64,000 bases of DNA from Streptomyces sp. SAI-127 (GTDB lineage: Bacteria > Actinomycetota > Actinomycetes > Streptomycetales > Streptomycetaceae). The position numbers were made by a program, and so were the translations under genes. How positions within the stretch are numbered: position 1 is the stretch's first letter; each line of letters opens with the position of its first letter. The stretch is from assembly GCF_029894425.1 (NCBI RefSeq), contig NZ_JARXYJ010000001.1, forward strand, positions 2,046,001 to 2,110,000, given 5' to 3'. The notes beneath the pieces were generated by a model. That model saw only the letters and a program-made list of their open reading frames with translations. It was not told the origin of the DNA and made no database searches. Shown in pieces: positions 52,394 through 64,000 of the stretch.

Positions 52394-53548
52394 CTACTGA
52401 TCGACCCGGAGCGTGAAGTGGACGCCGTCGCGGGCCAGTTCGCCCAGCCACTGCTCGGACCGGGCCGCAGTCTCCGCCGCCCGGTTCAGGCCGGCCGGGA
52501 GAGAGCCGTCCAGGATGTGACCGGTGCCGAGGGCGAGAGTGCGGGAGACACAGCGGGCCATGGCGCTGTCCTCCTCGTCGCCCACCAGGTCGAGGAGGTA
52601 GCCGCCGGACCAGGTGCGGCCGTCCTTTGCGCGCACGTCGAGGGAGACGGCGAGGACGACCCGGTCGCGGTCGGCCTCCGTCGTCGGGTATCTGGCCGCC
52701 AGTTCCTGGGCCAGGGCGGCGATCCGGGTGTCGTCGCCGGTCCTCAGCTCCTCGAAGACCGGCTCCCAGGCGCGCAGCCAGCCGTCCAGCCGCAGGGTCC
52801 CGCGCACGAAGGTCCGCGGTGTCCAGGCGGCCGGCAGTCCGTACTGCTCGACGAAGGGGAGGCTGTCGCGGTTGGGGTAGACCTCGAACGTCTCACCGTC
52901 CACGACATGGCGCCGGGTCGCCTCCCAGGGGCGGTCGGCGGTGGTCGGGGTGCCGTTGTCGATGTAACGGGCGGGCGAGCGCAGGGCGTTCAGGACTCCG
53001 GCGGGGGCCCAGCTGAAGCGGTACTTGAAGTCGTTCGGGACGGCGGGGACACCGCCGCAGTAGGAGGTGAGGCTGTACGACGCCGGTGTCGCGTCGCCGA
53101 TCACACCGCGGGCCGCGGCGACGAGGCTGTGCGCGAAGAGGTGGTCGATGCCCGGGTCGAGGCCCGCCTCGGTGAGGACGACGATCCCGGCCCTCTCCGC
53201 CTGCGGCACCTGTTCGAGGACGGCGTCCGACACATAGCTGGAGCAGGCGAAGTGGGCCCTTTCGCGCGCGCAGGCGGCGAGGATCCCGGCGTGCTCGGGC
53301 GCGGGCAGCATCGACACCACGACGTCGCCGGGCGCCAGTGCGGCCACGAGCGCGGACAGCGTGTAGGCGCGCGGCTCGGCCCGTCCGGTGAGCCCCAGTG
53401 CCGCGAGGGCCTCGGCGGCACGCTCCTCGGTGCGGTGCCACAGACGGACCCGGTCGGCGGTGTCGCACAGCTCGGCCAGGCCGCTGCCGGTGGAGAGCCC
53501 GGCGCCGATCCAGTGGACGGTGCCGGTCGCGGGGACCAGGTCAGACAC
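52394..53548 (-). CDS. saccharopine dehydrogenase, LYS9-like (L-glutamate-forming type)
   Basis: 384 residues from GTG 53548, which overlaps the upstream gene by eight bases. HWIGAGLSTGSGLAEL is the Rossmann loop; AGIVVLTEAGLDPGIDHLFAH is a LYS9 signature, and SYCGGVPAVPNDFKYRFSW is the C-terminal domain motif. LYS9 enzymes interconvert saccharopine with glutamate plus aminoadipate semialdehyde. Last gene of the operon. Some homologues reduce other substrates, so the family rather than the exact reaction is certain. Confidence 0.85.
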   Translation of the reverse strand: MSDLVPATGTVHWIGAGLSTGSGLAELCDTADRVRLWHRTEERAAEALAALGLTGRAEPRAYTLSALVAALAPGDVVVSMLPAPEHAGILAACARERAHFACSSYVSDAVLEQVPQAERAGIVVLTEAGLDPGIDHLFAHSLVAAARGVIGDATPASYSLTSYCGGVPAVPNDFKYRFSWAPAGVLNALRSPARYIDNGTPTTADRPWEATRRHVVDGETFEVYPNRDSLPFVEQYGLPAAWTPRTFVRGTLRLDGWLRAWEPVFEELRTGDDTRIAALAQELAARYPTTEADRDRVVLAVSLDVRAKDGRTWSGGYLLDLVGDEEDSAMARCVSRTLALGTGHILDGSLPAGLNRAAETAARSEQWLGELARDGVHFTLRVDQ

Positions 53549-54605
53549 GACGGAACTCCCCTTCGTCGATGCCGAGTTCACGGCACGCCTGATGGAACCG
53601 GTCCAGACAGCGCCCCCAGGGGCCGCCGACCCCGAACTCCAGCAGCAGGGGCAGCAGGGACCCCGAGAAGCCGACGCTGGACTCCTCCGGGAGCAGCGAC
53701 GGCAGGTTGTCGATGGCGATCAGGTCGAGCGGGGGCTCCTTGTGCAGCCGGCGGACGGGCTCGGCCCACTCGGTGACGCGGTCGTAGACCGGCAGGACGT
53801 TCAGGGGCGAGCCGACGTCGCAGGTGACGTCGGAGAGGGTGCGCAAGCGGCGGTTCGGGTCGTCGAGGTCCGCCTCGCGGACGAAGGGCGGGACGGGAGT
53901 GGTGGCGAGGACGCAGTTCACGAGCAGATCGTGGGCGAGCAGGGCGGGGCGGTCCAGACTGCGGGTCTCCTCGAGGTCCCAGCAGGCCGGCTCGACCCCG
54001 GCGGCCCGGAGCGCGACGCGCGCGCCCCGGCCGCTGCGGCCCAGGGCGCCGATCACCAGCGCCCGGAACTCCTCGTCCCCGGCGGCGGGCCGCAGGACCT
54101 CGCCCAGTTCCTCCTGCGAGGTGGGCGTGAGGGGAGCGGACAGCCTGCCCCGGTGCTGGAGCACGGCCAGGGCCGCACCCAGGTAGCCGGCCCAGTAGCC
54201 GAAGGCGGCGAGCCTGCGGCCGTGGTCGTCGACCAGGTACTCCAGGTCCAGGAGCGCCCCTCCCCCGGCGGCGAACCGGCGCAGCAGTTCCAGGGCGCCC
54301 GGCTGCTCCTTGTAGGCGTGCCCGAAGAAGAGGTGCCGGTGCGGCAGGGCGGCGGGCTCGTCGGGGAGTTCCTTCAGGCCCACGACCACGGCGTCCAGCG
54401 GCGCCCGGGACGCCCACGACCCCGCGGGCGCGACTCCGCAGCCGGCCGCCTCGTACTCCTCGATCGGGAAGATCCGCTGCGGGGACTCCTCGACGGTCAG
54501 CGTCACCCCGCTGTCGACGAGCCGCCGGGCGTCGGACGGCACGACGGGCGTGCGTCGCTCGGTGGAACGGACCTCGTGGCGCAGCCACAGATGGAGCTCG
54601 GTCAT
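53541..54605 (-). CDS. saccharopine dehydrogenase, LYS1-like (L-lysine-forming type)
   Basis: 354 residues, LYS1 length. The N-terminus (LWLRHEVRSTERRTPVVPSD, then VEESPQRIFPIEEYEAAGC) is the AlaDH/PNT-N domain with the lysine-forming enzyme's Arg/Lys/Glu pattern; LFFGHAYKEQPG follows, and SDVTCDVGSPLNVLPVY is near the C-terminus. It should join lysine and 2-oxoglutarate in saccharopine, or the reverse. ATG 54605 overlaps the FAD oxidase stop. Finding LYS1-like and LYS9-like genes side by side is unusual for a bacterium that makes lysine by the diaminopimelate route. Confidence 0.87.
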   Translation of the reverse strand: MTELHLWLRHEVRSTERRTPVVPSDARRLVDSGVTLTVEESPQRIFPIEEYEAAGCGVAPAGSWASRAPLDAVVVGLKELPDEPAALPHRHLFFGHAYKEQPGALELLRRFAAGGGALLDLEYLVDDHGRRLAAFGYWAGYLGAALAVLQHRGRLSAPLTPTSQEELGEVLRPAAGDEEFRALVIGALGRSGRGARVALRAAGVEPACWDLEETRSLDRPALLAHDLLVNCVLATTPVPPFVREADLDDPNRRLRTLSDVTCDVGSPLNVLPVYDRVTEWAEPVRRLHKEPPLDLIAIDNLPSLLPEESSVGFSGSLLPLLLEFGVGGPWGRCLDRFHQACRELGIDEGEFRRV

Positions 54606-55750
54606 ACGCGGTTGGCCTCCGGGCGCGGGGCGTCGGCCGCGAACCGGCCGGCGCTGAGCGGGCTGATGTCCACGAAGGGTACGCGGCCGAGGTACAGGTC
54701 GCGGACGACCTCGCCGACGGCCGGCCCCTGGAGGAAACCGTGGCCGGAGAAGCCGGTCGCGTACAGGAAGCGGGACACCGAAGTGGCCTCGCCGATCAGG
54801 GCGTTGTGGTCGGGGGTGAGCTCGTACAGGCCGGCCCAGCCGCCGGTGCGGCGCAGGTCGAGGAGGGCGGGGGCGCGATGCGTCATGGCCTCGGCGAGGC
54901 GGGGGATCCAGCGGTCGTGGGTGGCGGTGTCGAAGCCGGGTGTCTCGTCGGGGTCGGACATGCCGAGGAGGAGGCCGGGGCCCTCACCGTGGAAGTAGAG
55001 GCTGCTGGTGAAGTCGATGGTCATGGGGAGGTCGGGCGGCAGCCCCTCGACCGGTTCGGTGACCGCGATCTGGCGGCGCAGCGGCTCGACCGGCAGGTCG
55101 ACGCCGACCATCGCGCCGACTTCCCGCGACCAGGCTCCGGCCGCGCAGATCACCGTGCCGGTGGCGATCCGGCCCCTGCTCGTCACGACGCCCGTGATGT
55201 CGTCGCCGTGCAGTTCGATGCCGGTGACCTGCGTGTGCCGCAGGATCGTCGCGCCGTGGCGGCGGGCGTCGGCGGCGTAGCCGTACACGACGGACTCGGG
55301 GGTGCAGTGGCCGTCCTCGGGCGAGAAGGAGGCGGCGAGCAGGCCGTCGGTGGTGATGAGGGGGGACAGCCGGCGCGCCTCGGCCGGGTCGGTCATGCGG
55401 CTCGGGACGCCGAGGGAGTTCTGGAGGCGCACGCTCTCCTCGAAGGAGGTGACCTCCTCCGGGGTCGACAGGAGGAACAGATAGCCGACCCGGTGCAGCC
55501 CGATGTCCTGCCCCGTCTCCTCCTCGAAGCGGCCGAACGCCTCCAGGCTGCGCGCCCCGAGCCGGATGTTGAGCTCGTCGGAGAACTGCGCCCGCACCCC
55601 GCCCGCGGCCTTCGACGTGGAGCCGGAGGCGAGGTCGTCGCGCTCGACGAGCACCACGTCCCGTACGCCCGCGCGCGCCAGGTGGCGGGCGATGCTCGTG
55701 CCCATGACGCCGCCGCCGATCACGACGACGCCGGCCGCGTGCGTGTTCAC
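54602..55750 (-). CDS. FAD-dependent amino acid/amine oxidoreductase (DAO family)
   Basis: 382 residues from GTG 55750. VVVIGGGVMGTSIARHLARAG is the dinucleotide-binding loop, SGSTSKAAGGVRAQFSDELN the flavin-proximal segment, and ATGFSGHGFLQGPAVGEVV the C-terminal FAD motif. This is the glycine/sarcosine/D-amino-acid oxidase family, which includes saccharopine and pipecolate oxidases. GTGA overlap with the ornithine-cyclodeaminase homologue upstream and ATGA overlap downstream. It probably oxidises a secondary amine made by its neighbours. Confidence 0.87.
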   Translation of the reverse strand: MNTHAAGVVVIGGGVMGTSIARHLARAGVRDVVLVERDDLASGSTSKAAGGVRAQFSDELNIRLGARSLEAFGRFEEETGQDIGLHRVGYLFLLSTPEEVTSFEESVRLQNSLGVPSRMTDPAEARRLSPLITTDGLLAASFSPEDGHCTPESVVYGYAADARRHGATILRHTQVTGIELHGDDITGVVTSRGRIATGTVICAAGAWSREVGAMVGVDLPVEPLRRQIAVTEPVEGLPPDLPMTIDFTSSLYFHGEGPGLLLGMSDPDETPGFDTATHDRWIPRLAEAMTHRAPALLDLRRTGGWAGLYELTPDHNALIGEATSVSRFLYATGFSGHGFLQGPAVGEVVRDLYLGRVPFVDISPLSAGRFAADAPRPEANRV

Positions 55751-56709
55751 CGGCGCTCCCCCTTCGCCGCCCGCACCACGGCCCAGGCCGCGGCCGCGTC
55801 CTGGATGCCGAGGCCGACGCTGTTGTAGTAGACGATGTCGCCGGGGGCCGTCCGGGCCACGGCTCGGCCGGTCAGGACGTCGCCGAGCCCGACGAGCTCG
55901 GTCAGCAGCCCGGTCCTGAGCGCGTCCACGACCGGGCCGGCGTGCTCCGCCGCGGTGGCCGGGTCGTCCACGACGACGGTCGCGGACCGCCGTAGGACGT
56001 CGGTGTCCACCTCCCGGCGGGTGGGCTCGAAGGACCCCACGCTCACCACCGTGCACCCGGGCGCCAGCCACTCACCGTGCACCACCGGTGTCGTGCTCAG
56101 GGTGCAGGCCGCGACCAGAGAGGCTCCGCTCACCGCCTCCTCGGCGCTGCCGACCGCTTCGGCGGGGAAGCCGAGCTCCGCCAGGGTCTCGGCGGCGCGG
56201 GCGCGGTGTCGCGGAGTCGGGCTCCACAGCCGTACGGATGTCAGGTCGCGCACCCGGGCGATCGCCCGCACATGGGCCAGAGCCTGGGTGCCGGAGCCCA
56301 GCACGGCCAGGTCGGTGCTGTCGGGCCTGGCCAGCGCGTCGACGGCGACGGCGCTCGCGGCGGCCGTGCGCAGGGTGGTCACCGCGGCACCGTCCATGAC
56401 GGCGGCCAGGCGGCCGGTCACCGGGTCGAGCACCGAGACCACGGCGTGGATCGTGGGCAGCCCGGCCGCCGCGTTGCCCGGGTTGACGCTGCCGAACTTC
56501 GCGACGGCCCCGGAGTCGGCGGAGAGCCGGGAGACGTACGCGAAGAGCACGCTGTCGTCGAAGCGGCTCGGATGCATGATCTTCGCCGGCAGGTCGGCCG
56601 TCCCGGAGCCGAGCGCGGTGAAGGCCGCGCGCTGCGAGGCGATGGCCGTGTCCGCGTCGAGCAGGCGGGTGACCTGCGGTCCGGACAGGAAGAGGACGTC
56701 GTCGGTCAT
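55747..56709 (-). CDS. ornithine cyclodeaminase / mu-crystallin family protein
   Basis: 320 residues. KFGSVNPGNAAAGLPTIHAVVSVLDPVTGRLAAVMDG and LRTAAASAVAVDALA, with the NAD loop LAVLGSGTQALAHVRAI, are the family signatures. Members include ornithine and lysine cyclodeaminases (proline and pipecolate formation), ketimine reductases and opine-type enzymes. With saccharopine dehydrogenases next door, a lysine-derived imine or pipecolate step is the best guess. It lies 45 bp after the GTP cyclohydrolase stop, so a joint transcript is plausible. Confidence 0.87.
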   Translation of the reverse strand: MTDDVLFLSGPQVTRLLDADTAIASQRAAFTALGSGTADLPAKIMHPSRFDDSVLFAYVSRLSADSGAVAKFGSVNPGNAAAGLPTIHAVVSVLDPVTGRLAAVMDGAAVTTLRTAAASAVAVDALARPDSTDLAVLGSGTQALAHVRAIARVRDLTSVRLWSPTPRHRARAAETLAELGFPAEAVGSAEEAVSGASLVAACTLSTTPVVHGEWLAPGCTVVSVGSFEPTRREVDTDVLRRSATVVVDDPATAAEHAGPVVDALRTGLLTELVGLGDVLTGRAVARTAPGDIVYYNSVGLGIQDAAAAWAVVRAAKGERR

Positions 56710-56754: not shown

Positions 56755-57414
56755 TCAGGACAGGTGGGCCACCGCGTCCAGATGGGGCAGGACGTGGTCA
56801 AGGCGCTCCCGCTTGGTGCGCAGATAGGTGATGTTGCTCTCGCACGGCGTGATGAGCAGCGGCACCGTCTCGGCGACCTTGATGCCGTGCCGCAGCAGCG
56901 CCTCGCGCTTGCGCGGATTGTTGGACATCAGGCGGACCGAGTTCACGCCCAGGTCGTGGAAGATCCCGGCGGCGACGCCGTAGTCCCGGGAGTCCACCGG
57001 CAGACCGAGCGCGAGGTTGGCCTCGACGGTGTCCAGGCCCTCCGCCTGGAGCGCCATGGCACGCAGCTTGGCGAGCAGTCCTATGCCCCGGCCCTCGTGG
57101 CCCCGCAGGTAGACGACGATGCCGCTGCCCTCCTTGACCACGGCCCGCAGCGCGGCATCCAGCTGGTCGCCGCATTCGCAGTGCTGGGAGCCGAACGCGT
57201 CACCGGTCAGGCACTCCGAATGCAGGCGGACAAGGACATCGTCCGCGCCGATGTCACCGTAGACCAGAGCGACTTGTTCGTCACCGCGGTCGTGATCGAG
57301 GTAGCCGACCGCCTGGAATTTCCCGTACACGGTGGGCAGCGGGGCATTCACCACGCGTTCCACGCCGGTGCGCTGTGGTGCCTTCTTGCCGAGGACGCCA
57401 ACTTTATCTGTCAT
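56755..57414 (-). CDS. GTP cyclohydrolase II homologue with Tyr-to-Met change (FAPy-forming type)
   Basis: 219 residues. Zinc and GTP site intact: HSECLTGDAFGSQHCECG has the three Cys, and LRGHEGRGIGLLAKLRA the catalytic loop. The residue after that is Met120 (RAMALQ), where the E. coli enzyme has Tyr105 (RAYALQ). In S. coelicolor SCO6655 a Met at this position is reported to stop the reaction at the formylated pyrimidine FAPy, since Tyr105 is needed for deformylation. No ribB domain is fused and no riboflavin genes are near, so this is probably not the housekeeping riboflavin enzyme. It is the first gene of the leftward saccharopine operon and starts 38 bp from the creatininase gene. Confidence 0.92.
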   Translation of the reverse strand: MTDKVGVLGKKAPQRTGVERVVNAPLPTVYGKFQAVGYLDHDRGDEQVALVYGDIGADDVLVRLHSECLTGDAFGSQHCECGDQLDAALRAVVKEGSGIVVYLRGHEGRGIGLLAKLRAMALQAEGLDTVEANLALGLPVDSRDYGVAAGIFHDLGVNSVRLMSNNPRKREALLRHGIKVAETVPLLITPCESNITYLRTKRERLDHVLPHLDAVAHLS

Positions 57415-57452
57415 GATCTGTTTCCTAAGCAGAGACGAAAGGCCGTGAAAAG

Positions 57453-58205
57453 ATGAGCGGTTCGGGAATACGGTCGGCGGCGTACGGTCTGTTGCCGACG
57501 GACACTACGGAAGACGTACGGACGCGGGGGGCGGGCGTCTCAACGCAGGTCGCCGTCCTTCCGGTCGGAAGCTTCGAGCAGCACGGTGCGTACCTTCCCC
57601 TGGCGACCGACACGCTCGTCGCCTGTGCCGTCGCGCGGGAGATCGCCGCGGCGTACCCGGTGCACCTCCTCCCCCCGGTGACGATCTCCTGCTCGCACGA
57701 GCACGCGGCCTGGCCGGGGACCGTCAGCATCTCCTCCGTCACCCTTCATGCGGTGGTACGGGACATAGCGGCCTCGCTGCGCCGCTCGGGCGTCGAGGCC
57801 CTGGTCGTGGTCAACGGACACGGCGGCAACTACGTGCTGGGCAACGTCGTCCAGGAGGCCTCCGCCCGCGGCGAGCGAATGGCGCTCTTCCCGGCCGCGG
57901 AGGACTGGGAGGCCGCCCGTGTGGAGGCCGGCGTGGTCACCTCGCTGCTCACCGACATGCACGCGGGAGAAATCGAGACCTCCATTCTTCTGCACACCGA
58001 TCCGGAATGTGTCCGGTCCGGTTACGAGACCTCCGATTTCGTCGCGGACGACCGTCGTCATCTCCTCACCCTCGGTATGTCCGGTTACACCGATTCCGGT
58101 GTCATCGGGCGCCCTTCACTGGGCTCGGCGGAAAAAGGGAAAGCCTTGCTGGAGAGCCTCGCGGCGTCCTTCGGTGCGTATTTCTCCACGCTCACCGCGG
58201 AGTAG
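57453..58205 (+). CDS. creatininase-family amidohydrolase (ArfB-like)
   Basis: 250 residues. Metal-ligand motifs GSFEQHGAYLPLATDT, VVNGHGGNY and DMHAGEIETS are intact. The family includes creatininase, mycofactocin MftE and the archaeal formamide hydrolase ArfB, which deformylates FAPy. Next to a cyclohydrolase predicted to release FAPy, a deformylase role is the natural inference. The 3-prime 121 bases overlap the convergent membrane-protein gene. Start ATG 57453 with GAAAGG ten bases upstream. Confidence 0.87.
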   Translation: MSGSGIRSAAYGLLPTDTTEDVRTRGAGVSTQVAVLPVGSFEQHGAYLPLATDTLVACAVAREIAAAYPVHLLPPVTISCSHEHAAWPGTVSISSVTLHAVVRDIAASLRRSGVEALVVVNGHGGNYVLGNVVQEASARGERMALFPAAEDWEAARVEAGVVTSLLTDMHAGEIETSILLHTDPECVRSGYETSDFVADDRRHLLTLGMSGYTDSGVIGRPSLGSAEKGKALLESLAASFGAYFSTLTAE

Positions 58206-59599
58206 CGGTTCGCGGGGCGCAGTCCCTGGTACCAGCGGACGACCAGGACGACCGCGCCCGGCAGGCTCGCCACGAAGCTGAGGACGCCGTACACGATCGC
58301 GGTCGCGAGTCCGGCGCCCGCGCCGAGGCCCATGGCGGCGAACGCCCAGGCCGTGACGCCCTCCCGGGGGCCGAACCCGCCGACGTTCAGGGGCAGTCCC
58401 ATGGCGAGCAGGGCGAGCACGGCCAGGGGCAGAAGTGCGGCGACGGAGGCGTCGGAGCCCGCGATGCGGGCGGCGAGCACGAACATCCCGAGGTGGCCGG
58501 CGAGGACGACGGCCGAAGAGAGCGCGACGCCGGGCCAGTTGCGGCGGGACAGCAGGCCCTCGCGGGCCTCGCCGAGGGTCGCGCGCAGGACCCGGCCCCG
58601 GCGGGAGGAAGGGGTCCGGTTCATCCGCAGGGCCACGACGACGGCGAGAGCGCCCAGGCCGGCGAGGCCGACGGCGGGGGCGAGGTGGCGGGCCTCAGCC
58701 AGCACCGGGGAATCCATCGTGAGCAGCACGGCACCGCCGACGACCACCAACGCGATCTGTCCGGCGACCCGTTCGAGGACGACCGCCCGGACACCGCGGC
58801 CCATGTCACCGGTGCTCTGGCCGTGCCGCACCGCGCGGTGCACATCGCCGAGGACACCGCCGGGCAGGGCCGCGTTCAGGAACAGGGCACGGTAGTAGTC
58901 GGCCACGGCCTCGCCGAGCGGCAGCCGGATGCGCAGCCCGCGGGCCACCAACTGCCAACGCCAGGCGCTGAACACGGTGGTCAGCACGCCGATCGCGAGC
59001 GCCGCCAGCAGGGCGGGGCCGTCGATCCGGCGCAGCCCGTCCAGGAAGACGCCGGTGCCGAGGCGCCACAACAGGACCGCGAGGATGGTGACGCCCGCGA
59101 CGGTGCCGATGTGGGTGCGCAGGGCGCGGGAGTTGAGTACTCCGCGCAGCGCGGTACGCCAACGGGGGGTCCGAGCGGTCCCGGGCCGTGCCGCGGTCAC
59201 GATCACGCCGATCCGGTCCCGGGAGACGGCGGCCTCGGTCAGGTCCGCGACGGGCTCCCCGGCTGCCTCCAGGATCCGGGCCCGGGCCACGATCGCCTCG
59301 GCCCGTGCCGTGAGCAGCTCGTCCCGCGTCTGGACCACCTCGGCCCGGAGCGTGAGGGCCCGGCGGGAGAGCGTGCCCGGCTCGGGCGCCTCCGCGGGTC
59401 GCCGGACGGGCAGCCGCGCCGTGCCGTGGCCGGTGCTGCGGACCGGGAGGCTCGCCCCGCTCCGGTCGGTGCTGCGGACCGGCAGGGCCTTTCGCTCGCC
59501 CGCCCCGGCGTCGTCGCCGCGGGTCGAGCGGTCCTCCTCCTGGCGTCCGGTGCGCTCCGCACGCCGCTCGGTGTCCGGCCGCACCGTCTCCACGCTCAT
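58085..59599 (-). CDS. UPF0104 / LPG-synthase-TM family membrane protein
   Basis: 504 residues. An N-terminal cytoplasmic part of about 145 residues is charged, with an internal repeat of LPVRST. Seven or so membrane segments follow (about 165-470). LPGGVLGDVHRAVRHG and LPLNVGGFGPREGVTAWAF are the family's conserved loops. The family includes the flippase domain of MprF and related proteins proposed to move lipid-linked sugars; there is no aminoacyl-transferase domain. The last 40 residues extend past the usual end and are encoded antisense to the creatininase gene. ATG overlaps the methyltransferase stop. Confidence 0.83.
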   Translation of the reverse strand: MSVETVRPDTERRAERTGRQEEDRSTRGDDAGAGERKALPVRSTDRSGASLPVRSTGHGTARLPVRRPAEAPEPGTLSRRALTLRAEVVQTRDELLTARAEAIVARARILEAAGEPVADLTEAAVSRDRIGVIVTAARPGTARTPRWRTALRGVLNSRALRTHIGTVAGVTILAVLLWRLGTGVFLDGLRRIDGPALLAALAIGVLTTVFSAWRWQLVARGLRIRLPLGEAVADYYRALFLNAALPGGVLGDVHRAVRHGQSTGDMGRGVRAVVLERVAGQIALVVVGGAVLLTMDSPVLAEARHLAPAVGLAGLGALAVVVALRMNRTPSSRRGRVLRATLGEAREGLLSRRNWPGVALSSAVVLAGHLGMFVLAARIAGSDASVAALLPLAVLALLAMGLPLNVGGFGPREGVTAWAFAAMGLGAGAGLATAIVYGVLSFVASLPGAVVLVVRWYQGLRPANRYSAVSVEKYAPKDAARLSSKAFPFSAEPSEGRPMTPESV

Positions 59600-60599
59600 G
59601 ACGCTCCGTCCGTCGGCCGGGACAGCGCCAGCAGGTCACTGTGGTGGACGACCACCTTCAACTCGCCCGCGCGGCAGGCCTCCAGGCGGTCCCGGAGGTA
59701 GCGCTCGGCGGGCTCCTTCAGCTCGGGCCGCTCCTCGACGGCCGCGCCGACCCAGCCGCGCAGCCACTGGGCAGTGAGCGCGGACTCGGCGGGACCGAGG
59801 CGCCAGGCACTCGGGTGCAGCCGTACCGTCGCGCCCCGTTCGGAGAACGCCTCGCAGGCGACGGTGACGGCGTCCGGGCCGAGCAGTCCGCCGCGCCGCT
59901 GATGGGCGTTGAACGCGTCGGCGATCTCGTCGTCCAGCGGGTCGGCCGGGGTGAGTTCGACGCGGCCCGCCACGGACAGGGTGAGCAGGGCCGGGCAGCC
60001 GGCGCCCGTGCAGGCCGTGGCGAGGGTCCCGATCTCCTCGCGGGTGAGGACGTCGAGGAGTGCGGAGGCCGTCACCAGGGAGGCGCCGGCGAGGGCGTCC
60101 GGGGTGAGCAGGCCGACGTCGCCGCGGCGGGTCTCGACGGTGACCCGGCTGCCGTCGGCGGCGGAACGCGGGGAGGCGACCGCGGCGAAGTGCAGGAGGT
60201 AGGGGTCCCGGTCGTGCAGGATCCAGTGCTGGGGGCCGTCCAGGCGGGGCGCCAGCCAGCGGCCCATCGAACCGGTGCCGCAGCCCAGGTCGTGGATGAC
60301 AAGGCCGGCCTTGCCCGGCAGGTTCGCCAGCCGGATCCGCAGCGGGTCGATCAGATCGCCCGCCCGCGCGGCCGCGTCGGGTCCCTCCCGGAGCTCGAGC
60401 CACTCGGGGGCGTAGCGGGGAGCGTCGTCGGGACCCGCGTCCCTGAGCCGTACGGTGGGACGCTCGCCGGGGTGGGTGCTGGGCCCGGCACCGGGGATGA
60501 CCGATTCCGCGTCGGAAGGAACTCCGGGCTTCACCGAAGCCACCTCCCACGGCCCCGGCTGTGCCGGGATCTTCCCGCTCTGCTTGGTCGCCGTCTTCC

Positions 60600-60603
<4 letters not shown>
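59596..60603 (-). CDS. class I SAM-dependent methyltransferase
   Basis: 335 residues. An N-terminal extension of about 60 residues (basic and Pro-rich) precedes a Rossmann methyltransferase domain: motif I IHDLGCGTGSMGRWLAPRL and acidic loop HDRDPYLLHFAAV. LLDVLTREEI corresponds to motif III. The substrate is unknown; context suggests a small glycosylated or pterin/pyrimidine-derived metabolite. Overlaps both neighbours by ATGA. Confidence 0.85.
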
Positions 60604-62266
<1,663 letters not shown>

Positions 62267-62293
62267 TCAGCCGTCTCTCACTCTTTTCTCAGG

Positions 62294-63274
62294 TCAGGCG
62301 CTCTTGCCGTACCTCACGAGGTGACAGAGGGCCGGAATTTCCCCACTGGCCAGCTTCGGCATCACCCCGGGGAGTTCTTCGAACGCGCTTTCCCCCGTGA
62401 TGAGGGCGTCGAGCGCCGGATCGGCGAGCAGCTTCAGCGCGAGGGCGAGCCGGTCGCCGTAGCTGCGGTTGCCGCGCGCCGGGGACACGGTGCCGACCTG
62501 GCTGCTGCGGATGACGAGCCGCCGGGAGTGGAAGGCCTCGCCGAGCGGGAGGGCGACCTTGCGGTCGCCGTACCAGCTCAGTTCGAGGACCGTGCCCTCG
62601 GCGGTGAGGAGTTCCAGGGAGCGGGCGAGGCCCTGTTCGGTGGCGCTGGCGTGGACGACGAGGTCGCAGTCGCCGAGGGCGTCCGCGGGGGACGCGAAGC
62701 CGACGCCGAGGGCCTCGGCGGTCTTGGCGCGGGCGGGGTCGGCGTCCACCAACTGGACCCGGACGCCCGGAAAGCGGGCCAGCAGCGCGGCGACCGAGCT
62801 GCCGACCATGCCGCCGCCGACCACCGCGATCCGGTCGCCGATCAGGGGGGCCGCGTCCCAGAGGGCGTTCACGGCGGTCTCGACCGTGCCGGCGAGGACG
62901 GCTCGTGCGGCGGGCACGTCGTCCGGTACGACCGTCACGGCGCTCGCGGGAACTACGTACCGCGTCTGATGCGGGTACAGACAGAAGACGGTCCTGCCCT
63001 TCACCGCGGAGGGCCCCTCCTCCACCACTCCGACGCTGAGGTAGCCGTACTTCACCGGCCCCGGGAAGTCGCCCTCCTGGAACGGTGCCCGCATGGTCGC
63101 GTACTGGCTCTCGGGCACCCCGCCGCGGAACACGAGTGTCTCCGTGCCCCTGCTGACTCCTGAGTACAGCGAGCAGACCAGCACCTCGTCCTCACGCGGG
63201 GCCGGAAGGGTGACCTCCCGTATCTCGCCCTCGCCCGGAGAGCGGAGCCAGAACGCGCGTGCGGCGGCCTTCAT
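62294..63274 (-). CDS. MDR-family dehydrogenase without catalytic zinc ligands (BchC-like)
   Basis: 326 residues. N-terminal GroES-like domain with [17 protein letters not shown] and a Rossmann loop [19 protein letters not shown] (about 150-168). The Cys-Gly-x-Asp and GHE zinc motifs of alcohol dehydrogenases are replaced by GVSRGTE and KYGYLSVG, so it is a non-zinc or atypical enzyme, as in BchC-type proteins. It likely oxidises or reduces a side chain in the pathway. First gene of the leftward operon; upstream 120 bp contains direct repeats and is shared with the divergent phosphatidyltransferase. Confidence 0.84.
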
Positions 63275-63305
63275 CGAGAACCTCCTGAACGATCGGGAAC
63301 CCGGG

Positions 63306-63325
63306 CACGTACCTCGTCACGTACC
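63306..63325. repeat. CACGTACC direct repeat in divergent promoter region
   Basis: CACGTACC at 63306-63313 and 63318-63325, twelve bases apart, 32 bp before the MDR start and 70 bp before the phosphatidyltransferase start. A candidate binding site for a shared regulator; none is visible in the window. Confidence 0.35.
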
Positions 63326-63394
63326 GAGATGTGCACAGGCCGCGCACAGTACGCGGCCTTGATCGACTCTGTCATCTGGCCGGAGGAATGTGCG

Positions 63395-64000
63395 GTGGCC
63401 CTGAACAACACTTACGAAGCAAGGCTGGTCCAGCAGGAGACCGCTGTGGGAGCGGGTCTGCAGATCCTGTTGCTGGCCCTGCTCGGCACGGCGATAGGCA
63501 TGGGGCCCGCGGGCTGGCTGACCGGCCTCGCCTTCGCCGTCGCCACCTGGGCCGTGCTCTCCAGGGCACTGCACCGCACCCGACCCCGCTCCTTCGGACC
63601 GGCCAACCGGGTGACCCTCGGCCGGGCGACCCTCGTCGGCGGAGTGACCGCGCTGGTCGCGGACTCCTTCCAGGACTCCCCGCCGGTGACGCTGTTCGTG
63701 GGCCTGACCGCGGTGGCCCTGATCCTCGACGGCGTCGACGGCAAGGTCGCCCGCGCCACGGGCACCTCGACCCCGCTGGGCGCGCGGTTCGACATGGAGG
63801 TCGACGCGTTCCTGATCCTGGTGCTCAGTGTGTACGTCTCGATGTCGCAGGGTCCGTGGGTCCTGCTGATCGGCGCCATGCGCTACGGCTTCGTCGCCGC
63901 GGCCCGCGTCTGGAACTGGCTGAACGCCCCCCTGCCGCCGAGCATGGCCCGCAAGACGGTGGCCGCGCTCCAGGGGATCCTGCTGCTCGTGGCCGCGTCC
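63395..64000 (+). CDS. CDP-alcohol phosphatidyltransferase (partial)
   Basis: 202 codons present, cut by the right edge. GTG 63395 with GGAGGA seven bases upstream. The signature D-G-x-x-D-G-x-x-A-R-x8-G-x3-D-x3-D is complete (DGVDGKVARATGTSTPLGARFDMEVD), and several membrane segments flank it. Such enzymes transfer a phosphatidyl group from CDP-diacylglycerol to an alcohol such as inositol, glycerol phosphate or another polyol. It is divergent from the MDR gene and likely part of the same functional group as the glycosyltransferase and UPF0104 protein. Confidence 0.9.
   Translation, partial: MALNNTYEARLVQQETAVGAGLQILLLALLGTAIGMGPAGWLTGLAFAVATWAVLSRALHRTRPRSFGPANRVTLGRATLVGGVTALVADSFQDSPPVTLFVGLTAVALILDGVDGKVARATGTSTPLGARFDMEVDAFLILVLSVYVSMSQGPWVLLIGAMRYGFVAAARVWNWLNAPLPPSMARKTVAALQGILLLVAAS

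Follow-up and report, generated by a model that had tools for sequence, protein, structure and literature searches.

A conserved Streptomyces gene cluster around a GTP cyclohydrolase II paralogue, with a proposed route from GTP to a glycosylated, methylated pterin-type product

The stretch analysed here (the window) comprises 64,000 nt of Streptomyces sp. SAI-127 (contig NZ_JARXYJ010000001.1, positions 2,046,001 to 2,110,000). At its right end lie eight genes around a paralogue of GTP cyclohydrolase II (GCHII), which we examined as one candidate biosynthetic cluster. A preliminary description of the window had named eight gene families, and family scans together with open reading frames show all of them to be present, as follows.

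56755-57414, (-) strand: GCHII paralogue of the SCO6655 type, 219 aa, Met120 replacing the Tyr of deformylation; PF00925, 220 bits
57453-58205, (+) strand: creatininase-family amidohydrolase, the proposed deformylase of formamidopyrimidine (FAPy); PF02633, 208 bits
58085-59599, (-) strand: flippase-like membrane protein, UPF0104 / LPG_synthase_TM; PF03706, 117 bits
59596-60603, (-) strand: class I S-adenosylmethionine (SAM) methyltransferase; PF13649, 22.6 bits, under the cut-off of 27
60600-61784, (-) strand: GT4-type glycosyltransferase with E-x7-E intact; PF00534, 104 bits
61781-62179, (-) strand: T-fold protein of the PTPS family (COG0720), TTG start, SCO6650 type; PF01242, 75 bits for 61781-62149; PDB 3d7j
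62294-63274, (-) strand: zinc-less medium-chain dehydrogenase/reductase (MDR); weak Pfam matches; BchC, 47.5 bits, under the cut-off
63329-64192, (+) strand: CDP-alcohol phosphotransferase, reaching beyond the window end at 64000 (full reading frame taken from the genome); PF01066, 53 bits

The T-fold, GT4, methyltransferase and UPF0104 genes form one chain joined by 4-nt stop/start overlaps. These serial overlaps, pointed out in the preliminary description, are real and recur among the 18 full Streptomyces clusters, the window's own included (T-fold/GT4 in 18/18, GT4/methyltransferase in 15/18, methyltransferase/UPF0104 in 17/18). The T-fold start is the TTG at 62179, a site occupied by a start codon (TTG, GTG or ATG) in 11/11 loci inspected; our first query sequence for this protein began at the ATG at 62149. 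The DxxDGxxAR...GxxxDxxxD motif of the CDP-alcohol phosphotransferase is intact, and E292 and E300 of GT4 are invariant in 15 aligned sequences from several phyla. The methyltransferase keeps the SAM-binding DLGCGTG region; Foldseek matched its AlphaFold2 model (pLDDT 76) to class I methyltransferases with low TM scores, a result that does not narrow the substrate. For the MDR, the model (pLDDT 88.5) matched alcohol/polyol MDRs with a TM of 0.7-0.8, and the fold search narrows the enzyme only to that fold. At what we take to be the position of the catalytic-zinc motif, 15 aligned MDRs have Ser, Gly, Thr or Glu and no Cys, in agreement with the earlier label of a non-zinc MDR.

The T-fold had been called inactive-looking, and its alignment bears this out. 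None of the signatures of PTPS-I, -II and -III (CxxxHGH, CxxxxxHGH and ExxHGH) was found, with no Cys or Glu at the respective positions in 19 aligned sequences, and in the six window-type rows HGA replaces HGH, so that one zinc His is lost. All three zinc His and the Glu are kept in 13/13 rows from Rubrobacteraceae. The window T-fold retains the Glu that we take to be the pterin anchor, and its sole PDB match at E <= 0.001 is SCO6650 (3d7j). COG0720 has been divided into PTPS-I to -VI with signature motifs for I-III, and the function of PTPS-V is called unclear (PMC5041015).

In order to describe how far the gene set is conserved, we counted T-fold matches at three thresholds. They occur in 51/396 Actinomycetota genomes (E <= 1e-5, weak matches included), in 54/374 genomes of the class, corresponding to 24/133 sampled genera (E <= 1e-15), and in 51/121 sampled Streptomyces (E <= 1e-20). 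Stretches of up to 20 kb were read around 40 of the 50 Actinomycetota matches outside the window's genome. Six of these loci, all Streptomyces, carry the eight genes in unchanged order; a Micromonospora locus (named by a 98% MDR match) has seven, creatininase missing; a 3.8-kb contig (L042) has GCHII, UPF0104, GT4, T-fold and a RibD_C reductase; and 23 Rubrobacteraceae loci (family assigned through named relatives) have MDR and T-fold, nearly all with GT4. The eight weakest matches (L066-L073) have neither MDR nor GT4. Altogether 21 Streptomyces T-fold loci were read. The order of the eight genes is kept in 18, and in eight of these RibD_C is inserted; the remaining three are a reduced locus and two lone paralogues, to which we return below. 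A creatininase orthologue (at least 66% identity) is found in 51/121 Streptomyces, the T-fold in 51 and both in 50, and in 45 of these 50 the two genes lie on one contig, 3.6-5.0 kb apart. Fifteen genomes whose creatininase matches reach only 63% or less were not counted as having orthologues, and ten loci with relatives of 55-63% identity (L083-L092) had no other cluster gene nearby and were set aside.

Searching species genomes with aligned Rubrobacteraceae T-folds gave 45 loci, including Chloroflexales, Thermomicrobiales and Sphaerobacter as well as metagenome-assembled genomes (MAGs) labelled Proteobacteria, Hyphomicrobium and Singulisphaera; the last label is doubtful because its GCHII nests in Roseiflexaceae. 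Neighbours were counted without 15 scan loci whose contigs agree in length with ones read before (L103, L104, L106, L108-L118, L122); among the counted loci, L105 and L107 share a single MAG, as do L119 and L121, and several are on short contigs. The 26 Rubrobacteraceae loci hold RibD_C (26), MDR (26), T-fold (26), GT4 (25), FolB (25), a PlsC-type acyltransferase (24), methyltransferase (20), a transporter of the major facilitator superfamily (MFS; 15) and GCHII (1). In the 27 Chloroflexota and other loci we found T-fold (27), GT4 (25), RibD_C (22), MDR (22), FolB (15), GCHII (15), the Rubrobacter-type methyltransferase (14), PlsC (3) and MFS (3). MDR, T-fold and GT4 with the reductase recur in Actinomycetota, Chloroflexota, Thermomicrobiales and two Proteobacteria-labelled MAGs. 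The distance matrices of T-fold, MDR, GT4 and RibD_C correlate, with r of 0.83-0.96 overall and 0.52-0.93 within groups, shared ancestry being uncorrected. The idea of a single GTP-derived pathway that includes the glycosyltransferase, methyltransferase and membrane-lipid genes, as first put forward in the preliminary description, gains support from these correlated matrices and from a gene set kept over large evolutionary distances. We conclude that the cluster probably encodes a dedicated, conserved biosynthetic pathway. It is apparently undescribed: a description of the pathway or product was not found in open-licence literature, a search that is weak for subscription papers.

The window also helps to place the cluster boundary. 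Four genes resembling those of amino-acid metabolism lie at 52394-56709 on the (-) strand, namely saccharopine dehydrogenase-like, LKR-like, FAD oxidoreductase and ornithine cyclodeaminase-like, named from reading the sequences and not from a family search. We rejected them as members, three of them adjoining the cluster in only 3/6 other Streptomyces loci and the ornithine cyclodeaminase-like gene in 0/6. The region had earlier been divided into two halves (52.4-57.4 and 57.4-64 kb) whose independent occurrence would speak against a joint function. That cut was wrongly placed: GCHII and creatininase go with the right half, and the 52.4-56.7 kb genes go with neither.

At residue 120, a Tyr in the RibBA of 4i14, the window GCHII carries Met (motif EGRGIGLLAKLRAMALQ), which fits the FAPy-type label that it had been given. 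Its assignment to the FAPy-forming SCO6655 type follows from PF00925 and from Met120, which reportedly makes SCO6655 stop at FAPy and which the window enzyme shares. Among 89 loci compared at this residue, 52 have a GCHII and 37 have none in the stretch read. All 25 loci that have a creatininase carry a residue other than Tyr (Met in 20, His in 3, Gln in 1, Leu in 1), and all 27 that have none keep Tyr; creatininase matches below 50% identity were left out, and the 25 include L096, a short contig that lacks the T-fold. The phylogeny of 53 GCHIIs shows that Tyr was lost and creatininase gained once, in one event (support 99/98); later the residue went on to vary within one family while creatininase persisted. 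This co-variation agrees with a possible deformylase role of the creatininase, but does not amount to many independent tests. The window creatininase is under all three NCBIfam cut-offs considered (ArfB 38/180, MftE 127/172, creatininase 93/235 bits). FAPy formamidase activity has been proven for a creatininase homologue, the BrbF protein found in Sinorhizobium and Brucella; its authors had not found a FAPy-making enzyme in their bacteria (PMC9478397).

A further gene, RibD_C, lies immediately upstream of MDR in 23/23 Rubrobacteraceae loci. It is within the cluster in Micromonospora, Rubrobacter, Chloroflexota and some Streptomyces, and elsewhere in the genome in others. In the PDB, the Rubrobacteraceae protein comes closest to 6p8c, entered as a diaminopyrimidinone reductase, and 2azn, entered as a uracil reductase; Pfam RibD_C was found in the copies scanned, and scores of 152.7, 131.0, 128.1, 107.5 and 101.4 bits are under the TIGR01508 cut-off of 186.45. 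Some RibD_C is present in 50/51 T-fold-positive Streptomyces. The type found in the window's own genome occurs in 42/51 T-fold-positive and 16/70 T-fold-negative Streptomyces (Fisher 9e-11, kinship uncorrected); in 41 of the positives it lies either at a great distance from the T-fold or on a different contig (75-100% identity), and in G477 it stands beside the T-fold. Of the nine positives without this type, eight have another RibD_C in the cluster between creatininase and UPF0104, with 39-43% identity to that of Rubrobacteraceae; three of these had already been read, and five were predicted and then found on fetching. The ninth, G396, is a genome 79% complete. Outside Streptomyces, 6/6 creatininase-type genomes without an in-cluster RibD_C own one elsewhere, some of the matches having in-frame stops, and a match at <=1e-15 was obtained in 18/21 genomes tested (in G703 the match is not the cluster copy), the other three being those of family f2. 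A RibD_C-type pyrimidine reductase belongs to the pathway, and the earlier statement that none of these genes is needed for riboflavin overlooks the riboflavin-type early steps.

The window's genome has three GCHIIs in all. Its RibD_C is unlinked to the cluster, near a second, Tyr-type GCHII, which we take to be the counterpart of SCO2687 and which may supply the same pathway. At this locus (L078, 7245-9231; C1, ~5468244-5470231) the Tyr-type GCHII is on the opposite strand to RibD_C, with a MarR-like gene (by reading) between them.

FolB and FolE bear on the product class. The cluster FolB is the only FolB of the genome in 5/6 Rubrobacter and 6/6 Chloroflexales; a further FolB is present in Rubrobacter taiwanensis (G026 = G509) and in a Thermomicrobiales MAG (G510). 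FolB in distant clusters hints at a dihydropterin, and since it is often the only copy of the genome it may be there for folate. FolE is above the family cut-off under 20/20 genome handles (19 distinct genomes), so the pathway is not needed for the dihydroneopterin of folate. A family scan found no deaminase, RibB, RibH or RibE domain among the eight window proteins, and with no deaminase among them the product is more likely to be a pterin or 2-amino-pyrimidine than to be a flavin or lumazine.

Taken as a whole, gene conservation, co-occurrence and residue co-variation lead us to favour, with some reservation, a route from GTP through FAPy, a diaminopyrimidine, its ribityl form and a pterin-type core to glycosylation, methylation and possibly membrane attachment. 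The early steps are likely. Met-type GCHII would open GTP to FAPy and go no further, and the creatininase-family enzyme would deformylate FAPy to 2,5-diamino-6-ribosylamino-4(3H)-pyrimidinone 5'-phosphate; in clusters without creatininase, Tyr-type GCHII would perform both steps. RibD_C, unlinked in the window's genome, would then reduce the ribose to a ribityl chain. In the archaeal riboflavin route, reduction precedes deamination. Retention of the 2-amino group would give a skeleton of the pterin type and not of the flavin type. The zinc-less polyol-type MDR could next oxidise a hydroxyl of the chain; if this is the 2'-OH, the resulting ketone would be the one that GTP cyclohydrolase I forms in its Amadori step. 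The T-fold could then bind the oxidised intermediate and cyclise or rearrange it. Glycosylation by GT4 and methylation by the methyltransferase would follow. The choice between a pterin and an open pyrimidine, like the membrane attachment, is inferred.

The last and weakest step would have the CDP-alcohol phosphotransferase and UPF0104 tie the product to the membrane or move it across. The former is present in 18/18 full Streptomyces clusters and 17/20 loci of other genera, in five of which (L169, L171, L174, L177, L180) it is on the strand of GCHII, MDR, T-fold and GT4; UPF0104 is present in 18/20. In Rubrobacteraceae (24 and 15 of 26 loci) and in three Chloroflexales loci, PlsC and MFS take that place and may perform the step instead. 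That the same core is accompanied by either of two unrelated sets of lipid and transport genes suggests a product that is exported or linked to a lipid. Going further, one can picture a membrane-anchored pterin glycolipid or exported pterin glycoside, made by rebuilding the GTP cyclohydrolase I rearrangement with polyol chemistry and T-fold ring closure, and retained in lineages as far apart as Chloroflexota and Streptomyces in the role of a cofactor, redox or light-absorbing lipid; this we offer as a speculative picture.

The alternative that survives best omits ring closure, the product being a glycosylated, methylated ribityl-diaminopyrimidine that the T-fold merely binds or epimerises. It fits a window T-fold without the third zinc ligand and the signature Cys or Glu, and the absence of known pterin-forming enzymes among the eight window proteins, but FolB in many distant clusters and the intact three His and Glu in Rubrobacteraceae speak for a ring, and we give this version a minor chance. 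A bypass of GTP cyclohydrolase I, supplying dihydroneopterin for folate by reduction and re-oxidation of the sugar, is improbable. A folate bypass with RibA and TrpF has reportedly been described in Chlamydia, the chemistry would fit, and FolB is in or beside many clusters; FolE in all 19 genomes leads us to reject this as the main role, and GT4, kept in 25/26 Rubrobacteraceae and 25/27 other loci, also speaks against it. Hardly more can be said for an extra supply module for riboflavin or flavin, which we consider slightly less probable still: GCHII and RibD_C are riboflavin families and the cluster GCHII is the only one in 4/5 Chloroflexales, but the later riboflavin domains and the deaminase are absent from the window proteins, and five Rubrobacter genomes hold another RibD-type gene beside a RibBA-length GCHII. 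That creatininase and GCHII are unrelated neighbours, the former an MftE-like peptidase or other amidase, is the least probable of all, since its best NCBIfam score (MftE) is under the cut-off, T-fold and creatininase co-occur in 50/51, and creatininase co-varies strictly with the GCHII residue.

Several observations weigh against the proposed route from GTP to a decorated pterin. The agreement of residue and creatininase in 52/52 loci is not 52 tests, because Tyr loss and creatininase gain are one event. A single GCHII lies away from the cluster in 5/6 Rubrobacter genomes, the cluster copy is the sole GCHII in 4/5 Chloroflexales, and some cluster members do also serve riboflavin or folate. 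A simple dihydroneopterin route would be redundant, FolE being present in all genomes tested, and neither FolB nor a phosphatase was seen in the Streptomyces cluster. Sixteen T-fold-negative Streptomyces own a RibD_C, mostly of a more distant type (mostly 54-69% identity); around six such genes (L157-L162) a GCHII lies within the stretch in 2/6, with no other cluster gene. The actinobacterial family f2 (G008/L041, G763, G834) has the T-fold in 3/3 and no RibD_C match besides a riboflavin-type RibD; G008 also carries MDR and GT4, and the family may use another route or RibD itself. At the reduced locus L093 (187-2215, in G477, 13.2-kb contig), MDR, T-fold and RibD_C are adjacent and GT4, creatininase and GCHII are not beside them, which may be a reduced or different version of the pathway. 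The T-folds at L094 (7724-8194) and L095 (7971-8498) are lone paralogues, 76-78% identical to that of the window. Lastly, methyltransferases of the Streptomyces and Rubrobacter lineages have no mutual BLAST match at 1e-6 except L147.

Three of these loci deserve a separate remark. The genomes of L094 and L095 (G414, G476) also own a window-type T-fold, and the two loci share some neighbours and no cluster gene. In the Hyphomicrobium-labelled MAG, ~7 kb of L147 (9023-16183) combine MDR, T-fold and GT4 with RibD_C, GCHII and a methyltransferase of the Streptomyces type, which suggests a transfer between phyla if the label is right.

Parts of the proposed route resemble systems already known. Cyanopterin and the pterins of CtPGT derive from GTP cyclohydrolase I. 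By T-fold sequence and Met120, the window genes are of the same type as SCO6655 (FAPy-forming GCHII) and SCO6650 (PTPS homologue, 3d7j) of S. coelicolor, which have reportedly been studied singly; a pathway or product assigned to them was not found in open-licence literature. SCO6655 and SCO2687 are in a table of genes with expression opposite to predicted flux, most of which, according to the authors, become more strongly expressed in stationary phase, possibly for the synthesis of antibiotics (PMC2853524). BrbF of Rhizobiales, likened here by family, performs the reaction that we propose for the window creatininase, and serves riboflavin with a FAPy-making partner not known to its authors (PMC9478397). 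The archaeal start of riboflavin synthesis (GCHIII, ArfB, pyrimidine reductase) likewise passes through FAPy and then deformylation (PMC9478397), but with a different cyclohydrolase, and at 38 bits the window creatininase does not reach the ArfB cut-off (180). In pterin glycosides (cyanopterin; Chlorobium CtPGT, PMC5683033) a glycosyltransferase acts on a pterin as proposed for GT4, likened here by description only. The window T-fold shares the fold family of PTPS-I to -VI without the signature motif of PTPS-I, -II or -III as given in PMC5041015.

The cluster gives SCO6655 and SCO6650 of S. coelicolor a pathway frame and names the missing reductase. With the T-fold in 51/121 Streptomyces and 24/133 genera of the class, the metabolite is probably common in well-studied bacteria. 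The pathway may account for one of the COG0720 subfamilies that have no known function. It also touches on the bacterial source of FAPy, which the BrbF authors had not found in their bacteria (PMC9478397).

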